A stretch of 64,000 nt of DNA from Vulcanisaeta sp. JCM 14467 (lineage in GTDB: Archaea > Thermoproteota > Thermoprotei > Thermoproteales > Thermocladiaceae): positions 186,001 to 250,000 of the forward strand of contig NZ_BBDM01000001.1 of the NCBI RefSeq assembly GCF_001316245.1, in the 5' to 3' direction. The translations under genes were made by a program, and so were the position numbers. Below, piece by piece: positions 24,174 to 43,897 of this stretch (position 1 is the first letter of the stretch; each line of letters starts with the position of its first letter). Under the pieces are notes generated by a model. The model saw nothing but the letters and a program-made list of their open reading frames with translations, made no database searches and was not told the DNA's origin.

Positions 24174-25035
24174 CCAATCACCTTCTCCATGTTGATCACC
24201 ACTATGTCCCTAGCCCCATTGGCCACGGCCTTACCCACGACCTCGGGCAACCTGTCTCATCAACGACGGTGATAACCTCCCACGCATTGGTATTGGCAAG
24301 CTTTGATATGGCTGGGGATAGCATGGCTGGTAGGACGGATAGTACCCTCTCGAGACTCTCATTGGGCACGTTCATGAAGAGCATCTTCTTGCCCCTAGCC
24401 GACAATACGCCCCTCATGAGTGTGAGTATTATGTTTATCCGCTCATACTCCTCACTACTGGCCCAATCCCTATTGCCAATAACCACGGCGCTGGTCTCCA
24501 TGACAACGTCAATCGGCTTCAAACCATGGAGTCTCAGGGTGGTTCCCGTGCTCATCACGTCAATTATGGCATCCGCAGCACCCAGCGACGGCATCACCTC
24601 AGCCGCGCCACTAACCTTCACGAGTCTCGCCCTAATACCCCTCTCCTCAACGTACCTCCTGGCGATGTTGACATACTTAGTGGCAATGCGTACCTCGCCC
24701 CTAATCTCCTCAGGCGATGATATATTCCATGATACTGGCACTGCCAGGACCATCTTAGCACTACCGAAGTCCAGTCTCAACAATTCCTCAACGTCGGCTC
24801 CCGACTCAACGACATAATCATGCCCGGTGATCCCAAGCTCCGCAGCCCCAGTCTCCACGATGCTCGGTATGTCCTCAGTCCTAACCATGACCAACTGCAC
24901 ACCCTCCCAATTCGTCGGAACAATCAAAGCCCTCTCATCACTCATCAACGGCCTAATACCAACATTAGCCAGGAACTGAAGCACGGGCTGCTGAAGCCTA
25001 CCCTTATTCGGTATTGCGATCCTCAAGGACATCAC
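24170..25035 (-). CDS. hisG: ATP phosphoribosyltransferase
   Basis: First committed step of histidine synthesis: ATP + PRPP. Long HisG form with a C-terminal ACT-like regulatory domain, so histidine feedback is expected. Motifs: [53 protein letters not shown], and the PRPP loop region [16 protein letters not shown]. The C-terminus is restored by one base near 24252 (VVDETG into [19 protein letters not shown]). About 288 residues. ATG 25032 may be the used start. Ends in ATGA with hisA. Confidence 0.95.
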
Positions 25036-25978
25036 CCAACACCCTCAGCAATAGCTCGCACTGCTCCCTGGTCCCCACGGTAACCCTGTAATAACCTGAG
25101 AGTACATTCCTAGTGGCTATGGACCTAGCCATGAGCGGCGTGAATAGGTCCCTATTGTCCTTAATGAGTAGGAAGTTCGTGTATGAATTAAACACCCTAA
25201 GCCCAAGCTTCATGAGTCCCTCACGCAGGTACTCCCTGTTGGCGCTGACCTCATTGACGATGTCCCTAACGTAAGATGGGTCCTCCAGGGCCTTAATACC
25301 AGCCACTAGGCTGGGTAGCGCGATATCAAATGGCGTCGTGGTCTTCCTCAACGCCTTAATAACATCCCCATCCCCAATTAGGTAACCCACCCTAAGCCCA
25401 GCCAGGGAGAAGGCCTTGCTAAGAGTCCTAACGATTAGGATGTTTGGGTAATCATAAACCAACTGGGCGAAGGACCTGCCGTAAAACTCGTAGTAAGCCT
25501 CGTCAATGACCAGGAAGCCCTTAACACTGCCTGCCACCTCCTCGACCAAGTCCTTATCCAGCACCGCGGAGCCCGTGGGATTATTCGGATTATCAATAAC
25601 CACAAGCCTCGCATCACGAACCTCCCTGAGCAACCCATCCCTATCGACGTACCACCAATCCTCACCCTCAACAAGCCCAACCCTGACGTGCCTGAGACCC
25701 CTAACTGATGAGTAGACCCTATACATGCTGTATGATGGGTAGAGCGTAACCACCTTATCCCCAGGCTGGGCCAGGTTGTAGAATATGATCCTTAAAGCCC
25801 CATCACCGCCGGGCGTTGGCAATACATTGCTGGGCTCGACACCGCTATACTCGGCAGCCAACTCGGAGAATCTCCTGAACAACTCAGGATGCTGGTACCT
25901 ATTCGAAAATTGGAGATATCGGATCACTGCCTCGATTACATGCTTAGGCGGTGGGTATGGTGATTCATTGAGGTGCAT
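25004..25978 (-). CDS. hisC: Histidinol-phosphate aminotransferase
   Basis: PLP-dependent class I/II aminotransferase. The pyridoxal Lys is in [31 protein letters not shown] and [13 protein letters not shown] are the family PLP-ring motifs. The given start ATG 25978 lies inside conserved sequence: the same frame continues upstream ([20 protein letters not shown]) to about 26071, with no ATG, GTG or TTG. Either a non-standard start (ATT) is used or one base is missing near the start. CTATATAG at 26081-26088 and TTATTAA at 26104-26110 are TATA candidates. First gene of the operon. Confidence 0.93.
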
Positions 25979-31796: not shown

Positions 31797-32996
31797 TTAT
31801 CTGACGAGTATTAGTGATGAGGCCTTCCTAACCTTCTCCCTGGCCTCCTCCACGGTGTTTCCAGTGGCCAGCACAACGCCCATCCTCCTGTTGTGGTAGG
31901 TGTATGGCTTGCCGAAGAGCCTAACCTGGACACCTGGTATCTCCAGTGCCTTGTTGATGTTGAGGTATTTCGGGGCCCACCCCTCGTTGTCGGCAAGTAT
32001 AACGTGGGCGGCGGCTGGGCTCACAAGTCTCACTTCAGGTGTTGGTAGCCCAAGGGCGCTCCTCACGTGTATCTGGAATTCATTAATGTCAAGACTTGCG
32101 AGGGTCACTAGGCCCGTGTCGTGGGGCCTAGGCGCGACTTCGCTGAATAGGACCCTGCCACCGCTGACCAGCACCTCTACGCCGAATATCCCCAGGCCGC
32201 CTAGTTCATTGACTATCCTAACCGCGTACTCCATAGCCCTTGCAGCCACGTCATTGGGCACCGTGTGTGGGTGCCAGGATTCAACGTAGTGGTAGACACC
32301 CCTGGGTCTCTGGTGCTCTATTGGCGTTATGACCTTGGTCACGACGACACCGTTGGGTTGGGGATACCTGTAGGTCAGTACGGTGAGCTCCGTGTCTATC
32401 CTTAAGTACTCCTCAACAATAACCCTCGAACTCCTGCCCCTCGCGTGCATCAACGCCTCCCTGAACTTCTCCTCAACCTCACCCTCGTTGCTTATCACCT
32501 CATGGCCATGGCCGCTGGAGCTCATTTCAGGCTTTACGATGCATGGGTAACCAATGTCCCTACACGCCCTCTTAACCTCCTCGGCGTTCTCGGCGAAGGC
32601 ATAGGCCGTAGTGGGTAACTTGAGCTTCTCGGCCGCAAGCCTTCTCAGCTCGATCCTATTCATGCATACCTTCACAGCCCTTGCGTTGGGCACCACCCTG
32701 TAGCCCTTCTCCTCTAACTCCATCAGGGCGTCCGTATTTATGGCCTCTATCTCGGCAATTATGGCGTCGGGATGCTCCCTCCTAACCACGCTCTTGATGG
32801 CGTCGCCATTGAGCATGTCAATCACGTACCTCCTATGGGCCACGTGCATGGCTGGGGCCATGTCATACCTATCAACGACCACGGTCTCCAACCCCATCCT
32901 CTGGGCCTCAATAACCATCTCCTTCCCCAACTCACCACCACCAAGCCAAAGAACCTTCCTCGCACCCTCAAGGAGCGGAGTCCCCAACTCCATCAT
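31797..32996 (-). CDS. purT: Formate-dependent GAR transformylase
   Basis: Third step of purine synthesis: formylates glycinamide ribonucleotide using formate and ATP. ATP-grasp enzyme, 399 residues, intact and full length. Motifs: [73 protein letters not shown] and [18 protein letters not shown]. Using PurT instead of folate-dependent PurN is usual in archaea. Divergent from purC, with an identical mirrored promoter. ATG 32993 or 32996 lies 27-30 bases from the TATA box, so the transcript is probably leaderless. Confidence 0.95.
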
Positions 32997-32999
32997 TAA

Positions 33000-33070
33000 A
33001 ACATTTATTTTAAAACATTTATAAGGCTTTTGTCGCTAATTCCCATTAATTATTTAAACAAATAATTAAA
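33000..33070 (-). repeat. Left arm of a perfect 71-bp inverted repeat; purT promoter
   Basis: Exact reverse complement of 33222-33292 over all 71 bases; the arms are separated by 151 bases. Read toward purT, it holds CCTTATAAATG (TATA box near 33022) and the downstream element TTTAAAATAAATGTT. The match ends within a few bases of the purT start, so both divergent genes receive the same promoter and any operator in it. Confidence 0.9.
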
Positions 33071-33221
33071 TAATAAACATGACTATGGATTACAGACAGA
33101 GTCGTAAATACCATGCCGTGTTATGCATAGGCTTAGCGAATTAGTTGTGGCTTATTGGTCTCGTGATGTGGTACTCGTGGTGAAAATACGTATTGGGGTT
33201 AATTTGAGTGTTGAGTTTTTG

Positions 33222-33292
33222 TTTAATTATTTGTTTAAATAATTAATGGGAATTAGCGACAAAAGCCTTATAAATGTTTTAAAATAAATGTT
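33222..33292 (+). promoter_or_regulatory. Right arm of the inverted repeat; purC promoter
   Basis: Same 71-base sequence as the purT promoter, in the opposite orientation. TTATAAA at 33268-33274 lies 28 bases before the purC ATG at 33299, giving a leaderless transcript. The segment from TATA to start, CCTTATAAATG then TTTTAAAATAAATGTT, recurs with few changes at purE. The 151 bases between the arms (33071-33221) hold no ORF I could support. Confidence 0.8.
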
Positions 33293-33298
33293 ACAACA

Positions 33299-34035
33299 AT
33301 GGGTGGTGAAAACCGAGGCGTGGACTTGGGTACGAGGTTTGTTAAGGTGGCGGAGGGGAAGACTAAGGTGGTTTATGACTATGATGCCGATCATTACCTA
33401 CTATATTTTAAGGATACGATAACCGCTGGTGATGGGGCTAGGAGGGATGTGATTGAGGGTAAGGGAGTCATAAATGCCCAGACCTCGGCATTCCTCTTCA
33501 AGCTACTGGAGTCCAGTGGTATTGAGACGCATTACGTGGGTATGTATGATGAGAGGACAATGATTGTTAGGAAGTTGAGGATGGTGCCGGTGGAGGTGGT
33601 CCTGAGGAACATAGCCACCGGCAGTATTGTGAAGAGGTTGCCGATTAGGGAGGGCGAGAGGTTTGACCCACCGATAATAGAGTTCTTCCTCAAGGATGAT
33701 GCGAGACACGACCCATTGCTAAACTACTCACACATGGAATACCTAGGGCTCTTCACCAGGAGGGAGGCGGAGCAGGTGGAGGAGGTGATGAGGCGGGTGA
33801 ATGACGCGTTATACAACTTCCTACTGAGTAAGGGTTGATACTTTACGACTTCAAGCTCGAGTTCGGTAGGCTTGGGGATAGGCTGGTCATTGGTGATGAG
33901 ATAACGCTGGATGCCATGAGAGTTAGGGAGAACGGTACACTGAGGATCCTAGACAAGGACCTCTACAGGAAGGGCGCTGACCTGGAAACGGTGAGGAGGA
34001 GTTATGAGGAGTTCCTCAGGAGGATCACGTCGTGA
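33299..34035 (+). CDS. purC: SAICAR synthetase
   Basis: Joins aspartate to CAIR. Motifs: [35 protein letters not shown], then [41 protein letters not shown] and, in the second frame, YDFKLEFG and [13 protein letters not shown] (ATP/Mg site Asp). The frame breaks at 33835; adding one G to the GGG run joins LLSKG to [11 protein letters not shown]. About 245 residues, full length. First gene of the forward purine operon. Confidence 0.95.
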
Positions 34036-34044
34036 GGTGGTGGG

Positions 34045-34317
34045 ATGATTTACGAGGTTGAGTTGATAATAATGAATAAGGATGGGGTTAGGGACCCTGA
34101 GGGTGAGACGATACAGAGATACGTCGTTGAGAAGATCGTGGATAACGCGGTTAAGGGGACCAGGGCAGGTAAGTACCTACTGTTCAGGGTTGACTCGAGA
34201 AGCCCGGAGGAGGCTGTGGGGATAGTTAGGAAGTTGGCTGATGAGGGTAGGTTCTACAACCCAATGGCCCATAGGGTCATCATCAGGGTGGTTGGGCGTG
34301 AGGACTGCAGTCATTAA
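34045..34317 (+). CDS. purS: FGAM synthase, PurS subunit
   Basis: The protein has 90 residues, intact. PurS-type small subunit: YEVELIIMNKDGVRDPEGETI then VDNAVKGTRAGKYLLFRVD. It bridges PurQ and PurL in the three-part FGAM synthase of archaea and Gram-positive bacteria. Overlaps the purQ start by 20 bases. Confidence 0.93.
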   Translation: MIYEVELIIMNKDGVRDPEGETIQRYVVEKIVDNAVKGTRAGKYLLFRVDSRSPEEAVGIVRKLADEGRFYNPMAHRVIIRVVGREDCSH

Positions 34318-34965
34318 GTTCCCGGGAACAACCTGTGAGACTGACGTGTATAGGGCATTGCTCGAGGCCGGGGTTGAGACTGAGGTGGTGGGGTTTAGGG
34401 ACTTTGACCCTGACAGGTACGACGCCGTGGTTCTACCAGGCGGCTTCAGCTTTGGGGACTACCTCAGGGCTGGGAGTATAGCCGCGAATACCGAGGTCAT
34501 GAGGAGGGTGAGGAAGATGGCTGATGAGGGGAAGGTCGTCGTCGGCATATGCAACGGCTTCCAAATACTCGTGGAGAGTGGGCTCCTCGAAGGCGCACTA
34601 CTGCCAAACCTAAACCTCAGGTTCGTGAGTAGGTGGGTCTACCTAAAGGTGGCCAGGAGGGACACAGTACTGACCAGGGGACTTGAGAAGGACGTGCTTA
34701 GGATGCCCATAGCCCACGCCGAGGGTAGGTACTACCACGAGGACCCCGATAGCTAGGGAGCTGGCTGTGCTTTATTACTCCGGGCCTGACGGGACGGTTG
34801 ACGGGCGATACAACCCAAATGGGTCGCTCCTAAACATCGCGGCCATAGCCAATGAGGAGGGCAACGTGATAGGCATGATGCCACACCCGGAGAGGGCGGC
34901 ATTCAGACTCACCTCCTGACGGCACGACAGACGGTCTACTACTGCTTAGGGGGTTGAGGGGATGA
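34298..34965 (+). CDS. purQ: FGAM synthase, glutaminase subunit
   Basis: Class I glutaminase supplying ammonia to PurL. Start GTG 34298 ([21 protein letters not shown]). Catalytic Cys in [18 protein letters not shown]; His/Glu in MMPHPERAA. Breaks near 34752 (after HEDPD, into [19 protein letters not shown]) and near 34914 (RLTS into [16 protein letters not shown]). Restored to about 222 residues. The stop overlaps the purL start (ATGA). Confidence 0.93.
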
Positions 34966-37094
34966 TTAGGCTAACGCTGACACCACACGAGATGGGCATC
35001 GTTAGGGAGAGACTGGGTAGGGAGCCTAATGAGGTTGAGTGGGCCGTAATCGACGCCCTGTGGTCCGAGCACTGCTCTTACAAGTCATCCAGGATATACC
35101 TAAGGAGCTTCCTTAGTACAGCCGAGGGTAGGAGGGTTGTGATGGGTATTGAGGATTGGCAGGACGCCGGGGCCCTGGACGTTGGTGATGGCTGGATCGT
35201 CGTGCTGAAGCTCGAGAGCCATAACCACCCATCGGCCATAGACCCATTCAACGGCGCTGCGACTGGGGTTGGCGGCGTAATCAGGGACATCATTAGCAAG
35301 GGCGCTAGGCCCATAGCCCTCCTCGACATGATCAGGGTTGGAGACCCACGTAAGGAGAGGAATAGGTGGTTATTGAGGAACATAATCAGGGGCATTGGGT
35401 TCTACGGCAATAGCATAGGCGTGCCCGTAATCGGTGGGGAGTTGTCTTTTGATGATTCCTACGAAGACAACCCGCTGGTCGATGTGGCCGGTGTTGGAGT
35501 GGTTAGGAAGGACAGGATCATACCCAGCGTGGTCAGGGAGCCTGGGCTTAGGATGGTCATTGTGGGGCTAACAGGGCTCGATGGTCTGGGAGGGGCGTCC
35601 TTTGCGTCGAGGAATCTCAGTGGGGAGGATGAGATTGGCGCGATCCAGATCGCGGACCCATTCGCCGGTAAGATAGTCCTGGATGCCACGTTAGCCGTGG
35701 CCGACAAGGTGGAGGCCATTAAGGACCTGGGCGGTGGCGGGTTGGCAGTGGCCGTCACGGAGATGGCCAATGGGTTAGGCGCGGTCGTGGACCTGGACAG
35801 GGTTCCCCTGAGGGTTGATGGTTTATCCCCAATGGAGATCCTCATATCCGAGACCCAAGAGAGGATGCTATTCGCCGTTAGGGAGGAGAATGTTAAGGAT
35901 GTTTGTGGGGAGTTCGAGTATTATGAGTATCCATGCGCAGAAATCGGTTACTTCACGGATAATGGCGTCATTAGGTTTCGATATGGAGGTAATGAGGTGG
36001 CAAGCCTACCAGCAAGCCTACTACTATCACCGCCACTCTATACCCATGAGGTCAGGAGACCGGCAGGGAAGCCTACGGCCGAGAGACTTGTAATCGATAT
36101 TGAGGAGGCCGTTAGAGGGGTCGTCTCACACCCAGACTTCGTGAGTAAGGAGTGGGCATATTCACAGTTCGACTATGAGGTCGGCACGTCAACCGTGGTC
36201 AAGCCGGGTGAGGCTGATGCGGCGGTGATCTCTTTACCCAATGGCAGGCTATTGGCAATCAAGGGTGATGCGAATCCCGACCTATGTGCCGAGGATGCCT
36301 ACGAGTGCGGTAAGTCCATAGTGGCCGAGAGCTATAGAAACCTAGCCACCGTGGGGGCCAGGGGAATCGGCATCGTCGACCACCTACAGTTTGGCGACCC
36401 AAGGAAGCCAGAGGTATATTACACGTTTGTCGAGGCCCTGAGGGGCATTGCCGAGGCCGCCAGGTTCTTCAGGACGCCTGTGGTTGGTGGTAAGGTTTCG
36501 TTTTACAACGAGAATAAGGATGGTAGGCCGATAAAGCCCACGCCACTGGTCGTCATGGTTGGTCTTGTGGAGGGTAAGTTCCTGAGGGGTAGGGTTGAGG
36601 AAGGGTTGAACATAGTGATGTTGGGCTTGACTAGGGATGAGCTGCGTGGGTCCTTCCTCTCAAAGCTATATGGTAGCTTTGGCGAGGTTCCTAGGGTGAG
36701 GTTGAATGAGGACCTCCTCGCAAGCGAGCTCGTGATATCGGGGATAAACCAGGATAGGGCCTTGTTCGTTAAGGACGTAGGCAGGGGTGGCCTAGTCACG
36801 GCATTATTCCCAATACTGGTTAGGGGCTTCGGCGTGGAGGTTAGGAGCGGCATGATCAAAAGCGATAGTGATGACTTGCTGGTTAAGTTATTCTCAGAGA
36901 CCAGTGGTAGATTCATAGTACTGACTAATGAGCCGGAGTGGTTCCTTGGGAATAAACTGGGCGTTGTGGCATCAGTGATAGGCAAGGTGACTAGGGACTC
37001 GGGCATCCTCAAAATAGATGATAGGGCTATGGACCTGGGCAGGGAGGTGGAGAATTACTATAACTACCTTTATAGGGTGATGGATGGTGATTAA
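34962..37094 (+). CDS. purL: FGAM synthase, large subunit
   Basis: Step 4: FGAR + ATP + NH3 to FGAM. 710 residues, intact, small PurL type without a glutaminase domain. Motifs: EWAVIDALWSEHCSYKSSR, KLESHNHPSAIDPFNGAATG, VGGVIRDIISKGARPIALLD, DLGGGGLAVAVTEMANG and the second-half VKDVGRGGLVTALFP. One of the longest intact frames in the window, in contrast to its neighbours. Overlaps purF by 8 bases. Confidence 0.97.
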   Translation: MIRLTLTPHEMGIVRERLGREPNEVEWAVIDALWSEHCSYKSSRIYLRSFLSTAEGRRVVMGIEDWQDAGALDVGDGWIVVLKLESHNHPSAIDPFNGAATGVGGVIRDIISKGARPIALLDMIRVGDPRKERNRWLLRNIIRGIGFYGNSIGVPVIGGELSFDDSYEDNPLVDVAGVGVVRKDRIIPSVVREPGLRMVIVGLTGLDGLGGASFASRNLSGEDEIGAIQIADPFAGKIVLDATLAVADKVEAIKDLGGGGLAVAVTEMANGLGAVVDLDRVPLRVDGLSPMEILISETQERMLFAVREENVKDVCGEFEYYEYPCAEIGYFTDNGVIRFRYGGNEVASLPASLLLSPPLYTHEVRRPAGKPTAERLVIDIEEAVRGVVSHPDFVSKEWAYSQFDYEVGTSTVVKPGEADAAVISLPNGRLLAIKGDANPDLCAEDAYECGKSIVAESYRNLATVGARGIGIVDHLQFGDPRKPEVYYTFVEALRGIAEAARFFRTPVVGGKVSFYNENKDGRPIKPTPLVVMVGLVEGKFLRGRVEEGLNIVMLGLTRDELRGSFLSKLYGSFGEVPRVRLNEDLLASELVISGINQDRALFVKDVGRGGLVTALFPILVRGFGVEVRSGMIKSDSDDLLVKLFSETSGRFIVLTNEPEWFLGNKLGVVASVIGKVTRDSGILKIDDRAMDLGREVENYYNYLYRVMDGD

Positions 37095-38425
37095 AGAGCA
37101 CTGTGGTGTGGTCGGTGTGTGGAGTAGGGATGGCGAGGCCCCATGATTGCCTACAGGGCGTTGAAGCTGCTGCAGCATAGGGGCCAGGAGTCTGCGGGGA
37201 TCTCCTACCTAGATGGCGAGATAAGGACTGTGAAGGGCATGGGGCTTGTGGAGGAGGCCATAGACCCAGCCTTGCTCGGTCGCTCGGGCCTTGCGATAGG
37301 CCACGTTAGGTACTCAACTACGGGGATGGGCACGATCGACGAGGCCCAGCCATTGTCGAATGGTGCGATCTCCGTGGCCTTCAACGGGACGATACCCAAT
37401 TACTACATGTATGGTACGAAGACAGACACCGAATTCATACTTAAGGTATTGAGTAAGAGCGGTGACGTGAGACTTGGCCTTAAGAGACTTGTGGAGCTTG
37501 CCGACGGCGCCTACTCGATAGTCATACTAACGACGAGAGGTGAGTTAATAGGGTTTAGAGATCCCAGGGGATTTAGGCCCCTGGTCCTTGGTAGGGTGGG
37601 CTCAAGCTATGTAATAGCCTCCGAGGACTCAGCCATTAGGCAGTTGGGTGGTAATGACATTAGGGACGTGAGGCCTGGCGAGGTGGTTTATATCGATAAG
37701 TACGGGAATGTGGAGAGTGAAGTACTGGCGCAACCGCAGGGAGTGACGACTTGCTCATTCGAGTACATATACTTCGCAAGGGCCGACTCCGTGATAGATG
37801 GGATTTCCGTCTATAGGGCTAGGGTAAGACTTGGCGAGATCCTTGCAGAGAGACACTACGTGGATGCCGACATCGTGGTCCCCATCCCAGGTTCATCAAT
37901 ACCGATAGCCATAGGCTATTCAAGGAGATCCAGAACACCACTTGAATTTGCGTTGACCAGGACAGAGATGGCCAGGAGATCCTTCATAATGCCAACCAGG
38001 AGGGAAGGGAGATAGTTTTAGTGGAGAAGTTTGGCGTGGTTGGTGAAGCTGTACGGGGTAAGAGGGTTGTGCTAATTGACGACTCGATAGTTAGGGGAAA
38101 CACAATGAAGCACGTGATAAGGCTACTGAGGAATAGTGGTGCCAGGGAGATTCACGTGAGAGTTGGTTCGCCCATGATACGGTACCCATGCTACATGGGT
38201 ATGGACTTTCCAAGATCCCAGGAGTTGATTGCCCATAATAGGACTAACAGGGAGATTGCAGCCGAGGTAGGGGCTGATAGTGTGGAGTACCTGACAGTCG
38301 AGGAGATGATAGAGGCGATAGGCAGGAGAGACCTATGCCATGCCTGCTTCACCGGGATTTACCCACTGAAGTATCCCCAATACTCACTTCGACTAGGATC
38401 TATGCTAAGGGGGTGGAGGGTGTGA
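37087..38425 (+). CDS. purF: Amidophosphoribosyltransferase
   Basis: First committed step: PRPP + Gln to phosphoribosylamine. Start GTG 37087 gives a short propeptide and the Ntn nucleophile Cys (MIKEHCGVVGVWSRDGEAP). One C added near 37140 leads into MIAYRALKLLQHRGQESAGI; then LAIGHVRYSTTG and VAFNGTIPNYY (oxyanion Asn). A second break near 37998 (SFIMP into NQEGREIVLVEKFGVV) precedes the PRPP loop RVVLIDDSIVRGNTMK. Cys at the C-terminal DLCHACFTGIYP fit the Fe-S form. About 446 residues. Followed by a paralogue. Confidence 0.95.
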
Positions 38426-39632
38426 GTGGAATATTGGGTGTATATGCCTTCGACAGGGTGTGGAATGTCGGTAAATTCCTCTACTACGGACTAATTGGGC
38501 TCCAACACAGGGGTTATTCTCACAGTGGCATAGTCACGTTGGGCAATGAAGGCTTCACTGCGGTGATTGATAAAGCGGCCCCTGAGGACCTAGAGATTGA
38601 TGAGTTGAGGGGTTGGGCAGGCGTTGGTTATACGGGGACTAGGCCGGGTTATCCATTGGTGACTGATTATGCGTTGCCGTGGTTGACGGTGTAGTGAGGA
38701 ACGTGGAGGAGCTGCTCAGGGGTATTTACAAGGACCCTGAGATGGCGTTGGCTGATAGTAAGGGCGTTTTCTCCTTAATCTTCCTCACCAGGGATGGCAG
38801 GATGATAGGCTATAGGGACGAGAGTGGTATTAAGCCCCTCGAGATTGGTGGATTCGGTTTCGATCTAGCCATCTTATCCTCCGAAACCTCAGGCATAACG
38901 GTGGTCGGTGGTGAATTTAGGAGGGAGTTAATGCCGGGTGAGATGGTCTACATAGACCAATACAGCGTCTCCTACTCTAGAATTAAGGAGGCCGCGCCCA
39001 GGTACTGCACCATAGACATTATTTATCAAAGCAGGATTGACAGCCACGTCTTCGGTCTCGACATATATGACGTTAGGGTTAGGATTGGTGAGGAGTTGGC
39101 TAGGGAGAGGAGAGTTGACGCGGACGTGGTCATTGGCGTGCCTGACACGGCGATACCGTACGCAATAGGGTACTCGAGGAGGACGGGTATACCGCTAGAG
39201 CTTGGCTTCGTTAGGACTGGGAGCAGTATAAGGACTATGCTGGCCTCGGACTACTTTCTCAAGATAGTGGGTATTCAGTTGAAGCTTAACCCAATAAAAT
39301 CCTCGGTTAAGGGTAAGAAGGTTGTTCTGATTGATGATTCCATGGTTACGGGTAGGACTCTGAAGAATGTGGTGTTTAGCCTTAGGTCGTTAGGGGCTAG
39401 GGAGGTCCACGTATTGATAGCTAGCCCCAAGTTAATCTCCAACTGTCCATACGGGATGCAGATACCGGAGGAAAGGGAGTTGATCACGGCCAATTTATCA
39501 GATGAGGAGGTGGCCAGGGTTATCGGGGCCGACTCAATCTACTGGCTAAGTCTTGAGGGGCTTTACAGGGCTGTGGGACATAGAAACCTGTGTCTCGGGT
39601 GTATGACCAGAGTTTATCCCAGGGAGGTGTAG
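38422..39632 (+). CDS. PurF paralogue lacking the catalytic Cys
   Basis: Diverged tandem copy of PurF. The nucleophile position reads Ser (MSGILGVYAF against CGVVGV in purF), so if Met is removed a Ser is N-terminal. LIGLQHRGYSHSGIVTL is kept, while the glutamine-site motifs are altered (WAGVGYTGTRPGYP instead of IGHVRYSTTG). One base added near 38680 joins DYALA to VVDGVVRNVEELLRG. The PRTase domain keeps VVLIDDSMVTGRTLKNV and the C-terminal NLCLGCMTRVYP Cys. About 404 residues. Could be a glutamine-independent or regulatory partner of PurF; function is inferred only. The start GTG overlaps the purF stop. Confidence 0.8.
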
Positions 39633-39635
39633 ACC

Positions 39636-41067
39636 ATGAAGGTCTTACTTATCGGCGATGGTGCCAGGGAACACGCATTGGCGGAGGCATTGGGTAACTC
39701 GGCGAGGGGCTATAGAGTCTATGCACTATCCTCGTACGTAAACCCCGGCATTAAGGAGGTAGTTGATGGGACGGGCGGCAAGTACTACGTCGGGAATATC
39801 CTGTCCCGGGATGAGATGAGGAGGGTGATTAGCGAGGTCGACCCTGACTTTGGCGTGATAGGGCCTGAGGACGCTCTTCGCTGGGATAGCCAACGTTTTC
39901 AGGGAGGAGGGTATACCCGTGGTTGGTCCGGATAGGGAGGTTGCGTTGATAGAGAGATCTAAGGTATGGATGAGGCAGTTGATGTGGAAGTATGAAATAC
40001 CGGGGAGACTGAGGTTCAGGGCATTCAGTAGTGCTGAGGAGGCGGTTAGGTTCATCCTCGAGTTTGGCGGTTCAATAGCCGTAAAGCCTTCGGAGCAGGT
40101 TGGTGGTAAGGGCGTTAAGGTGGTCGCCGATCTTCAGGCGTACTTAAGTGGTGAGAAGAGGGATGCCCTGAGCAGGAGCGCCGGTAGAATTGCCGAGCTC
40201 GTTAAGGATGAGGTTAAGTTAATCATTGAGGAGAAGGTTGATGGGCCTGAGTATACACTCCACATTCTCACCGACGGCCACACATACCTACCGCTACCCC
40301 TGGCCCAGGACTATAAGCACGCCTATGAGGATGGGATAGGGCCTGAGACTGGTGGTATGGGCTCGATATCAGGGCCTGGGTCATTACTGCCATTCATCAT
40401 TGAGGAGGAGTACGGGAGGTCTGTGGAGATAATAAGGCTCACCATAGAGGCTATTAGGAGGGAGACGGGCAGGGACTACGTTGGTGTCCTGGCGGGGCAA
40501 ATGATGCTCACAGGCCTATGGGGACCGACAATCATTGAGTATTACTCGAGGTTTGGCGATCCCGAGGCATCCGCAATAATACCACGCATTGAGGGTGACT
40601 TCGGAGAGGTGCTTGAATTAACGGCGACTGGGCACTTGAGTAGGGCTAGGATAGGCGTTGTCGAGAAGCCCTCCGTAGTGAGGGCCGTGGCTCCACTGGG
40701 CTACCCATTGGATAGGAGGATGGCGTCAGGTCACAGGGTTTGGCTTGACCTGCCGAGGATGAGGGAGTTGGGTTGTAGGGTCTACTTCGGTTCCATAGCC
40801 CTTGAGGGTATGCAGTTAATAACCAGGGGGTCGAGGGCTCTCGAGCTCGTGGTGATCGACGAGTTCGGTGAGGCAGTTAGGAAGCTCGATAAGTGCTTCT
40901 CCCTGATATCCTCGGACACGAGGCTCATATATAGGCATGACATTGGGAGCGCCATAGAGACTCAGATTGAGAAGGCCGAAATAGTTAGGTATACCTATAA
41001 AGCTAGGGAGAGGGCTGGATTGCTCGGGGTCTCTGCGGATTGGTCACCAAATGGTGGTCTGTGGTGA
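39636..41067 (+). CDS. purD: GAR synthetase
   Basis: Step 2: ligates glycine to phosphoribosylamine; ATP-grasp. N-terminal MKVLLIGDGAREHALAEAL; then SIAVKPSEQVGGKGVKVVAD, VDGPEYTLHILTDG, AQDYKHAYEDGIGPETGGMG and FGDPEASAII. Break near 39885: EDAL joins to AGIANVFREEGIPVVGPDRE. This is one of the few sites that needs a base removed (or two added). About 477 residues, a little longer than bacterial PurD. The C-terminal 60 residues (LDKCFSLISSDTRLIYRHDI) are typical of archaeal forms. Confidence 0.93.
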
Positions 41068-42025
41068 ATGAGTACGCCAAGTCTGGTGTAGACCTGGACA
41101 AATTGAGGGAGTATCACTCACTAATTTCGTCGCGCCTATCCTCTCAGGGCTTACCCATCGGTATCGGGCATTATGCAGGTGCCGTGAGGTTTGGCGATGG
41201 CTACATCGTGATGCATGTTGATGGTGTTGGCACCAAGACCTTACTCGCCCTTAGGACTGGGATTATTGAACCCACCGGGGTGGATTGTGTGGCCATGAAC
41301 GTTAACGACGTAGTCTGCGTGGGCGCCAGGCCAATAGCCCTCGTGGATTACCTGGCCCTGGAGAGGCCCATGGATGAGGTTGTCGAGAGGGTTATCATAG
41401 GCTTGAGGCAGGGAGCTGACGAGACTGGGATTCCCATCGTCGGTGGTGAGACGCTATAATGCCCGGCGTGGTGAGGGGTTACGACTTGTCCTGCTCCGTG
41501 GTAGGTATTGCCCGTGAGTTGAAGATTGGCGATGATGTTAGGCCTGGCGATGTGGTTCTGGGACTGGCCAGTAATGGCCTTCATGCCAATGGCTACTCAC
41601 TGGTGAGGAGGCTCATTGATGAGGGTAGGCTTAGACTTGAGGAGTGGGCTGAGGAATTGATGAAGCCGACACGTATATACTCTAACTCCATCCTCTCGGT
41701 TATTGACAAGATAAAGGCCGCGGCGCACATCACGGGTGGGTCCTTCACCAAGCTTAGGAGGATAACGAATTACCGCATCACCATAAGGCTGCCGGAACCT
41801 CCTGAGATATTTAAGGCTATTGAGAGGGCTGGGGTGTCGCATGAGGAGATGCATAGGGTCTTCAACATGGGCATAGGCATGGTGATATTCGTCAGTAGGG
41901 AGAATGTGGAGGAGGTTGTGCGGGTCCTCAGTGGGCGTGGTGAGGAGGTTATTGAGTTGGGTAGGGTTGAGGAGGGGCAGGGAATTAAGGTAATAACATA
42001 CAGGAACGAGGTCCTCCACCTGTGA
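41061..42025 (+). CDS. purM: AIR synthetase
   Basis: Step 5: closes the imidazole ring of AIR. GTG start at 41061 or 41064 (VNEYAKSGVDLDKLREYH), overlapping the purD end. Motifs: VMHVDGVGTKTLLAL, GVDCVAMNVNDVVCVGARPIA, GLRQGADETGIPIVGGET, LASNGLHANGYSLVRRL and AHITGGSFTKLRR. Break near 41455: adding one G joins GGET to AIMPGVVRGYDLSCSVV. About 321 residues. Last gene of the forward purine operon, convergent with purK. Confidence 0.95.
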
Positions 42026-42038
42026 GACCTGGGCGCGC

Positions 42039-43153
42039 CTATATGTATTGATCAACGCCCTCGGGATATATTAAGTCCATTATAATGCTGATCTTACGCT
42101 TAACATCATCCAGGGACTCACCAACCACATTTACATGCCCCATCTTCCTCCTCCTACGCACCTCACCCTTACCATACCAATACACCTTACCGTACCTAAG
42201 AACCTCAGGCGGCACCCTGCTCGTGCCTAGTATGTTGACCATCCCACCGTAGGATAGGAGCGCCGTGTCGCCAAGCTCCATCCCCGTGATAGCCCTCAGA
42301 TGCTGCTCAAACTGAGAAACGAAGGCAGCATCCAGGGTATAATGGCCCGTGTTATGCACCCTGGGGGCGAACTCATTGATCAACACATCACCACCCCTCA
42401 CGAAGAATTCGATGGCCATTGTACCTACGTAGTTCAGTGAATCAGCGAGCTTCCTGGCTACCTCCACGAATTTATCCAGGACCTCACCATCATTCAGCGG
42501 CCCGTAGTTGTAAACCAGTATTCCCTTACTATTGTAATTAAATGTTGGTGGGTATGCCCTGAAGTCGCCCTTCCCATCCCTAGTGACAACTATTGAGACC
42601 TCGTAGTCAAAGTTCACGAGTTCTTCGACGACGAACCTACACTTCATTTCCTTAATGATTGGTACCTCTCCACATCACCCCTTATGAAGTACTGACCCTT
42701 CCCATCATAACCACCCCTACTCTGCTTTATGACGCCCACGTTGTTGAATTGATCCCTCAGGATGCGCAGCGCCTCCTCGCCATCCTCAGCTATGTAGAAC
42801 CTCGACGTTGGCAGTGAGTGATCCCTATAGTAGACCTTTTCCCTCCACCTCTCCCTCTTGAGTTCAACAGTGTTCAGCCCAGGGAGTAACTTACCCTTCT
42901 CCTCAGCGTACCGCAGTGCCTCTTCACTCACGTGCTCGAACTCGAAGGTCACTACATCGGCCTGGTCAATCATCTCCCTATACTCCTCGGGCCTGAAGCA
43001 CCTATCCGCAATCCTACAGGCCGGTGCGCTCGGGTCGTCAAGTACGTAGAAGGTGAATGGGTACTTCCTACCCTCTAGTATCATCATCCAGCCCAACTGC
43101 CCACCGCCCAGTATGCCAATCCTCCTACTCGAGCTTTGTATTAAGGACCTCAT
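42039..43153 (-). CDS. purK: N5-carboxyaminoimidazole ribonucleotide synthase
   Basis: ATP-grasp enzyme: AIR + bicarbonate + ATP to N5-CAIR. Motifs: [52 protein letters not shown] and, in the second frame, [37 protein letters not shown] and [11 protein letters not shown]. Break near 42656, repaired by one base (VERYQ into [14 protein letters not shown]). About 371 residues. Overlaps the end of purE by 29 bases. Confidence 0.95.
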
Positions 43154-43597
43154 CCCTCATCCCCTCCATGAACCTCTTCATCTTCTCCGCTATCTCGGGA
43201 TACTTAATGCCAAGGATCCTAAGGGCAAGCAGCGCGGCGTTTCTAGCTCCCCCAATGGCCACCGTGGCCACGGGGACTCCGTACGGCATCTGGACTATCG
43301 AGAGGAGTGAGTCAAGCCCGTTGAGGCTTCTTGACGGTATTGGGACACCAATCACGGGTAAATGCGTCAATGACGCAACCATACCGGTAGATGAGCAGCA
43401 CCGCCTGCCCCAGCGATTATAACCTCGATGCCCCTACTCTCCGCGGTCTTAGCAAACTCAAACATGAACTCAGGCGTCCTGTGGGCCGAGACAACCCTAA
43501 CCTCCGTCTCAACGCCAAAATTCCTCAAAACCTCCACAGCCCCCTTCATGTACTCCCAATCAGACTTACTACCCATTATTACCGCAACCTTAGGCAT
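43125..43597 (-). CDS. purE: N5-CAIR mutase
   Basis: Moves the carboxyl group of N5-CAIR to give CAIR. Motifs: [51 protein letters not shown] then [16 protein letters not shown] and [21 protein letters not shown]. Break near 43389: one G joins HLP to GMVAS. About 157 residues. Class I PurE acting with PurK. ATG 43597 is chosen because it begins the conserved strand; it overlaps the stop of the leader ORF, with GGTGG about 9 bases before as a ribosome site. Confidence 0.95.
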
Positions 43598-43736
43598 AAC
43601 AACCACCAGCGCAATCACTCCCAATCCCAGGCTCGGTAACGCCCAAATGCGGTAGATTTCCCATCGTTGTAATACCGTAATTCTTGGCGTTCCTTATTAA
43701 TTCCAAAGACCTCCTGTGTGAGACTTGCATGTTCAT
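43590..43736 (-). CDS. 48-residue leader ORF upstream of purE
   Basis: The first ATG after the purE promoter (43736, 29 bases from the TATA box) opens a 48-codon frame: [20 protein letters not shown], then [17 protein letters not shown] and [11 protein letters not shown]. Its TAA overlaps the purE ATG (ATGCCTAA), which is typical of translational coupling. It contains a short amphipathic helix and a C-x3-C pair. No family recognised. It might be a small regulatory or accessory protein, a leader peptide, or a displaced N-terminal part of PurE; purE homologues normally lack it. Confidence 0.5.
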
Positions 43737-43739
43737 TGT

Positions 43740-43775
43740 TATAACATTTATTTTAAATTACTTATAAGGATTTTT
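43740..43775 (-). promoter_or_regulatory. purE-purK promoter with shared purine element
   Basis: Read toward purE: CCTTATAAGT, then ATTTAAAATAAATGTT, then ATAACAATG. Compared with purT and purC the TATA box, the TTTAAAATAAATGTT element and their spacing are kept; upstream AATT and GA-AAAA positions also agree. It drives the leader ORF and purE-purK as a probable leaderless transcript. Confidence 0.7.
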
Positions 43776-43897
43776 CAATCAATTAATATCGTTAATTATT
43801 TAATAATTTAATTAAACAATGCCGTGATGATATTACGAGTCTAGTCACCACTCGGGTATAATCTTAGGTTGAATTAAGTTAAGCGTATCCAATTTGT

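Follow-up and report, generated by a model that had tools for sequence, protein, structure and literature searches.

The 71-base inverted repeat between purT and purC of Vulcanisaeta sp. JCM 14467 probably consists of two identical promoters in mirror image, which belong to the host's own purine regulon and are set upon a purine biosynthesis cluster of Sulfolobaceae-like origin. Judging from the sequences compared, the purT promoter most likely arose recently by inverted copying of the one at purC, and both are likely to be controlled by a native protein combining HTH and phosphoribosyltransferase domains (HTH-PRT). Foreign purine genes appear in this way to have been rewired into the purine control circuit of the host. 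How imported operons enter host control mostly has to be deduced from the final outcome; here the sequence reveals the donor operator, the host operator and the promoter that was copied, and the latest copy has not yet diverged. The locus also points to a purine regulon of the host genus, with its operator and a candidate PurR-like regulator, and to another operator serving overlapping genes in Sulfolobaceae. The stretch of DNA analysed, 64,000 nucleotides long, is referred to below as the window.

Positions 33000-33070 of the window are the reverse complement of positions 33222-33292 at 71 of 71 bases, as an earlier note on this DNA had reported, and the 151 bp between them (33071-33221) are, again as reported there, unrelated in sequence to the arms. 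The exact match stops at 71, the window holding no inverted repeat of 72 bases; with mismatches allowed, it reaches 87 nt at 93% identity (32990-33076 and 33216-33302). The G+C content is 18% in the arms versus 48% in the window. By our own estimate the chance expectation of such a repeat, with arms within 1 kb in 64 kb, is approximately 1e-24 even at the composition of the arms, and both its length and shuffles rule out a chance origin. After it, the longest inverted repeat in the window measures 13 bp (arms within 600 bp). The genome contains no full-length, near-identical copy besides the two arms, and the single-copy spacer, whose orientation may be ambiguous in the assembly, has no match elsewhere in the genome or the genus. 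Mirror promoters are not a common habit of divergent purine promoters either, since those of relatives contain inverted repeats of just 6-15 bp.

Each arm is a promoter made up of an operator and a TATA box, the right arm serving purC on the plus strand and the left arm purT on the minus strand. On the purC side the operator (33219-33243, TTGTTTAATTATTTGTTTAAATAAT) is followed by a segment of 24 nt, the TATA box (33268-33275, TTATAAAT) and the start codon at 33299, which lies approximately 27 nt from the centre of the TATA box and 68 nt from the operator centre. The operator is a 25-bp dyad with the half-sites TTGTTTAA and TTAAACAA; from the spacing of archaeal promoters, the purC transcript is expected to be leaderless. 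The mirror counterparts of purT, on the minus strand, are an operator at 33049-33073 and a TATA box at 33017-33024, both TATA boxes being recognized by sequence. Here the operator centre is 65 nt from the first ATG and 68 nt from the second (32993), which is approximately 27 nt from the TATA box. Because homologues begin at this second ATG (MEIGTPLLEG), purT probably starts there, and its geometry is therefore probably identical to that of purC. With the purT start so adjusted, the arms adjoin the starts of purT (minus strand) and purC (plus strand), each with its TATA box, in keeping with the earlier description. A third, older copy of the promoter lies on the minus strand upstream of purE-purK (43736-43819; operator 43795-43819, TATA box 43760-43767). 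It matches the arm at 74% by BLAST and the purC promoter at 77% through the start codon, with a slightly different spacing of 71 nt between operator and start. Between this promoter and purE there is a short reading frame (43598-43736, minus strand), a leader peptide or a frame error, without a match in the purine loci examined in relatives.

The operator recurs at purine genes throughout the host genus. A matrix built solely from the purS promoters of seven genus relatives, with no contribution from this genome, scores 35.8 at purE, 33.7 at purC and 29.3 at purT, the next non-overlapping site in the window reaching 18.9; first-order Markov sequence of the same length gave a maximum of 16.6 in ten trials. 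The operator is all A/T and random sequence at 18% G+C scores up to 28, so that single weak sites are untrustworthy alone. Spacing is a stronger argument than matrix score: in each of the seven relatives, 67-68 nt separate the operator centre from the start codon of purS, a distance that recurs at purC and, counted from its second ATG, at purT, and nearly so at purE, with the operator upstream of the TATA box. A 25-column model of the relatives' operators, run through twelve genus genomes, matches at purS, purC/purD, purL/purE and the gene for the glutaminase subunit of GMP synthase (guaA). Additional genus matches fall at genes for adenine phosphoribosyltransferase, a purP-like protein, permeases, a CYTH-domain protein (the permease and CYTH names are our own reading of the sequences) and an HTH-PRT protein. 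Further sites in this genome occur at a permease/CYTH pair, a permease/guaA pair and the genes for a metallophosphoesterase and an Lrp-type regulator. Taken singly, sites have modest genome-wide E-values (0.02-0.03 for those of purC and purE), and the case for the regulon is therefore that the same genes carry the site in one genome after another. The sites at purS, guaA and genes of purine salvage and transport would thus mark a genus-wide purine regulon. The proposal that a mirror-image promoter ties purT and purC to one signal gains support, since each arm combines a TATA box with a full operator that is a purine site across the genus.

The genes behind these promoters are of Sulfolobaceae type. 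They comprise purT, the formate-dependent GAR transformylase (31797-32993, minus strand; NCBIfam PRK09288, 535 bits); purC (33299-34035, plus strand; TIGR00081), with a frame broken near 33835; the remainder of the acquired operon, namely purS, purQ, purL, purF, a second purF, purD and purM (34045-42025, plus strand), assigned by profile matches, identities and tree; and purK and purE (42039-43597, minus strand). The pur genes of the window are 61-85% identical to those of two Sulfolobaceae genomes (G270 and G320), and purE-purK are 66-83% identical to those of a further Sulfolobaceae genome (L131, isolate CF.Pisc.bin.25). By comparison, purC, purS, purQ, purL, purF, purD, purM and purK share mostly 35-57% identity with the genus, and purE 66-73%. 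The difference is wide for purL (80% to Sulfolobaceae) and purC (82.5%, G270/G320) versus approximately 40% to the genus, and narrower for purT (81%, G320, versus 72-74%). In the trees, purL of the window groups with G270/G320 (support 100/100) and purT lies inside a Sulfolobaceae clade (support 97/97). The 72-74% identity of purT to the genus had suggested a native host gene, an idea dropped after a phylum search and the tree. No native-type purL is left in this genome.

In the relatives, purS, purQ and purT form an operon in this order, and the gene divergent to purC is purD instead of purT. In L131, purK-purE is divergent from a run from purC to purM, with purT following; its order differs from that found here, which is therefore a rearrangement. 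The cluster is flanked by native genes at 27.9-28.7 kb (80% to the genus) and at 55-57.7 kb (87-93%). Its G+C content is 53% versus approximately 40% in the sampled donors, and the transfer is therefore old or the donor lineage unsampled. A hisC gene (25004-25978), amid his genes at 20.9-26 kb, is 68-70% identical to G270/G320 and 31-37% to the genus; hisC lies approximately 25 kb from purC in the donors, and his and pur genes may have been acquired together. Two tandem purF-like genes (37143-39632) are likewise found in Sulfolobaceae and in genus relatives, and the second may be a divergent paralogue.

Sulfolobaceae possess a purine operator of their own. The palindrome TTTACTTN4AAGTAAA is found with at most one mismatch in the purC promoters of the twelve loci examined, and in the purT promoters of 13 of 17 loci at approximately 60 nt from the start. 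It also precedes guaA, an APC-type permease gene and a xanthine-dehydrogenase-like gene, and each Sulfolobaceae genome holds one to three exact copies (L161-L167, L131-L135, L168-L183, L266-L278). This operator resembles that of the host in its overlapping gene set (purC, purT, guaA and APC-type permease) and in its distance from the start codon, but it has another sequence and is missing here despite the Sulfolobaceae-type pur genes. Exact copies number zero in this genome and in genome G007, and no site with up to two mismatches is present in the window, purC and purT included. The host operator, for its part, occurs in none of the 12 Sulfolobaceae purine loci. Given the absence of the donor palindrome and the presence of the host operator, all three promoters of the imported cluster would therefore have exchanged the donor site for the host site. 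In the literature searched, from which most subscription journals fell outside, there was no relevant description of the operator, of a PRT-type archaeal regulator or of mirror promoters, nor of either purine regulon, that of the host genus or that of Sulfolobaceae.

We infer the following course of events. The purine cluster would have been acquired from a Sulfolobaceae-like archaeon, and the donor operator would have been lost, with the host operator now in place at purC, purT and purE. Host-type promoters would have come first at purC and purE, and an inverted copy of the purC promoter would then have been placed before purT, so that the host regulator would control purT, purC to purM and purE-purK along with guaA and genes of purine transport. 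Over 83 nt the purC promoter shares 73% identity with the purS promoter of a genus relative (G004); downstream of the operator the identity is 62%, and none of 300 shuffles was as good (0-3 of 300 for other relatives). This likeness speaks for a host promoter as ancestor rather than for independent evolution. The purC and purE promoters still agree past the repeat, as far as the start codon (ACAACAATG and ATAACAATG), and both their operators start with TTG, whereas purT differs at both ends; the copy was therefore probably made from purC to purT. For neutral sites, the lack of any difference in 71 bases corresponds, by our own calculation, to a divergence below approximately 4% at 95%. Such identity, which includes a segment that is variable among relatives, indicates either a recent copy or continuing conversion. 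Selection, conversion and recent inverted duplication had all been proposed in the earlier note as causes of the identity; the balance now tips towards a recent inverted copy from purC to purT. The test offered there, relatives with unrelated promoters at the two genes, is inapplicable as worded, because purT and purC of the relatives are not divergent neighbours.

Continuing gene conversion between the arms, through a single-strand hairpin or strand-switch repair, could instead have kept two old promoters identical. Close inverted arms invite conversion, and the variable segment that has stayed identical comprises the 24 nt between operator and TATA box. We nevertheless find this explanation unlikely, because an initial copy would be required anyway and because relatives lack the divergent purT/purC arrangement, making the pair no older than the rearrangement in this lineage. 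It is more doubtful still that the imported promoters were retained, that their operators drifted to the host type and that functional selection alone made the arms alike. The TATA-proximal parts of purC, purT and purE are indeed closer to each other than to host promoters, but the donor palindrome is missing altogether, selection for an operator of 25 bp and a TATA box does not keep 71 bases identical, and the resemblance of the purC promoter to host purS extends downstream of the operator, beyond what shuffles achieve.

An assembly artefact producing the second arm, or a chimeric contig producing the whole cluster, is very improbable, even in a draft genome of 25 contigs and 81.6% completeness in which the cluster has many broken reading frames. 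The arms are correctly spaced from two different start codons and have different flanks, contig joining would not give Sulfolobaceae-type genes host-type operators unseen in Sulfolobaceae loci, and native genes stand on both sides of the cluster. The breaks (window positions 33835, 38015-38021, 38679, 41459, 42645 and 43370-43600, and G000:C6:63752) affect purC, both purF genes, purM, purK, purE and the HTH-PRT gene, and similar ones occur in three relatives (G002, G003 and G008); they have the look of indel errors left uncorrected in a long-read assembly, not of pseudogenes. We give hardly any credence to a MITE-like element inserted between purT and purC: 71-bp terminal inverted repeats and a 151-bp interior would fit its geometry, but neither the unit nor its interior has a second copy in the genome or in 11 genus relatives, and the arms are working-type promoters whose operator is common to promoters outside the repeat. 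A role as DNA structure, the cruciform or replication hairpin raised in the earlier note, is physically possible and equally far-fetched, for although folding of the single strand yields -79 kcal/mol (z -17), any perfect inverted repeat does the same, hairpin strength is no evidence of use, extrusion of a cruciform is disfavoured by a loop of 151 nt and relatives have no counterpart. An RNA element was rejected as well, no Rfam family being found at the repeat and the arms lying upstream of the expected transcription starts; a sub-threshold fluoride-riboswitch match inside purL (17.8 versus 34 bits) was ignored.

Under the preferred reading, a recent inverted copy of a host-type promoter, the regulator reading the arms is most likely the native PurR-like HTH-PRT protein, which would bind the operators and, as repressor or activator, govern transcription from them. 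The protein is present in all 23 genomes searched and scores 250.6 bits against PRK08558 (cut-off 184). The gene of this genome is the native version, with 84-88% identity to the genus; it lies on contig C6 as two frame-broken pieces. At its start, in this genome (G000) and in most readable genus genomes, stands TTTAAACAATTGTTTAAA or a close variant (L240-L249, L263), a head-to-head pair of operator half-sites next to the TATA box, an arrangement that would be expected for self-control.

In Bacillus subtilis, the PurBox regulon is governed by PurR, a repressor with HTH and phosphoribosyltransferase domains that senses PRPP. The system proposed here is similar in having a dyad operator upstream of genes for purine synthesis, salvage and transport and a candidate with both domains; it differs in its archaeal TATA promoters, its unrelated operator sequence and a regulator of candidate standing. 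Against TIGR01743, the Bacillus pur operon repressor, the candidate scores 87.7 bits, under the cut-off of 258.7 and in the PRT part only, which places it outside the Bacillus PurR family by that cut-off and limits the comparison to how it may work. Capture of host promoters by horizontally acquired operons is a general phenomenon, and here too foreign genes appear to have come under a host regulatory site; a perfect mirror pair and an older third copy set this case apart, in that the copying is still visible. A wider reading, to which we give even chances, is that the whole de novo pathway was swapped for a foreign one and control kept through direct and mirror copies of a host promoter, with two undescribed archaeal purine regulons that differ in operator and possibly have orthologous PurR-like HTH-PRT regulators. 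If true, promoter copying would here be the means of regulatory capture, observed before the copy has changed at any base. The regulator may also be another protein, for example the product of an Lrp-type gene carrying a site. One such gene of the Lrp/AsnC type (L221, G000:C2:176854) has an operator-like site upstream, and could be an alternative member of the regulon or its regulator.
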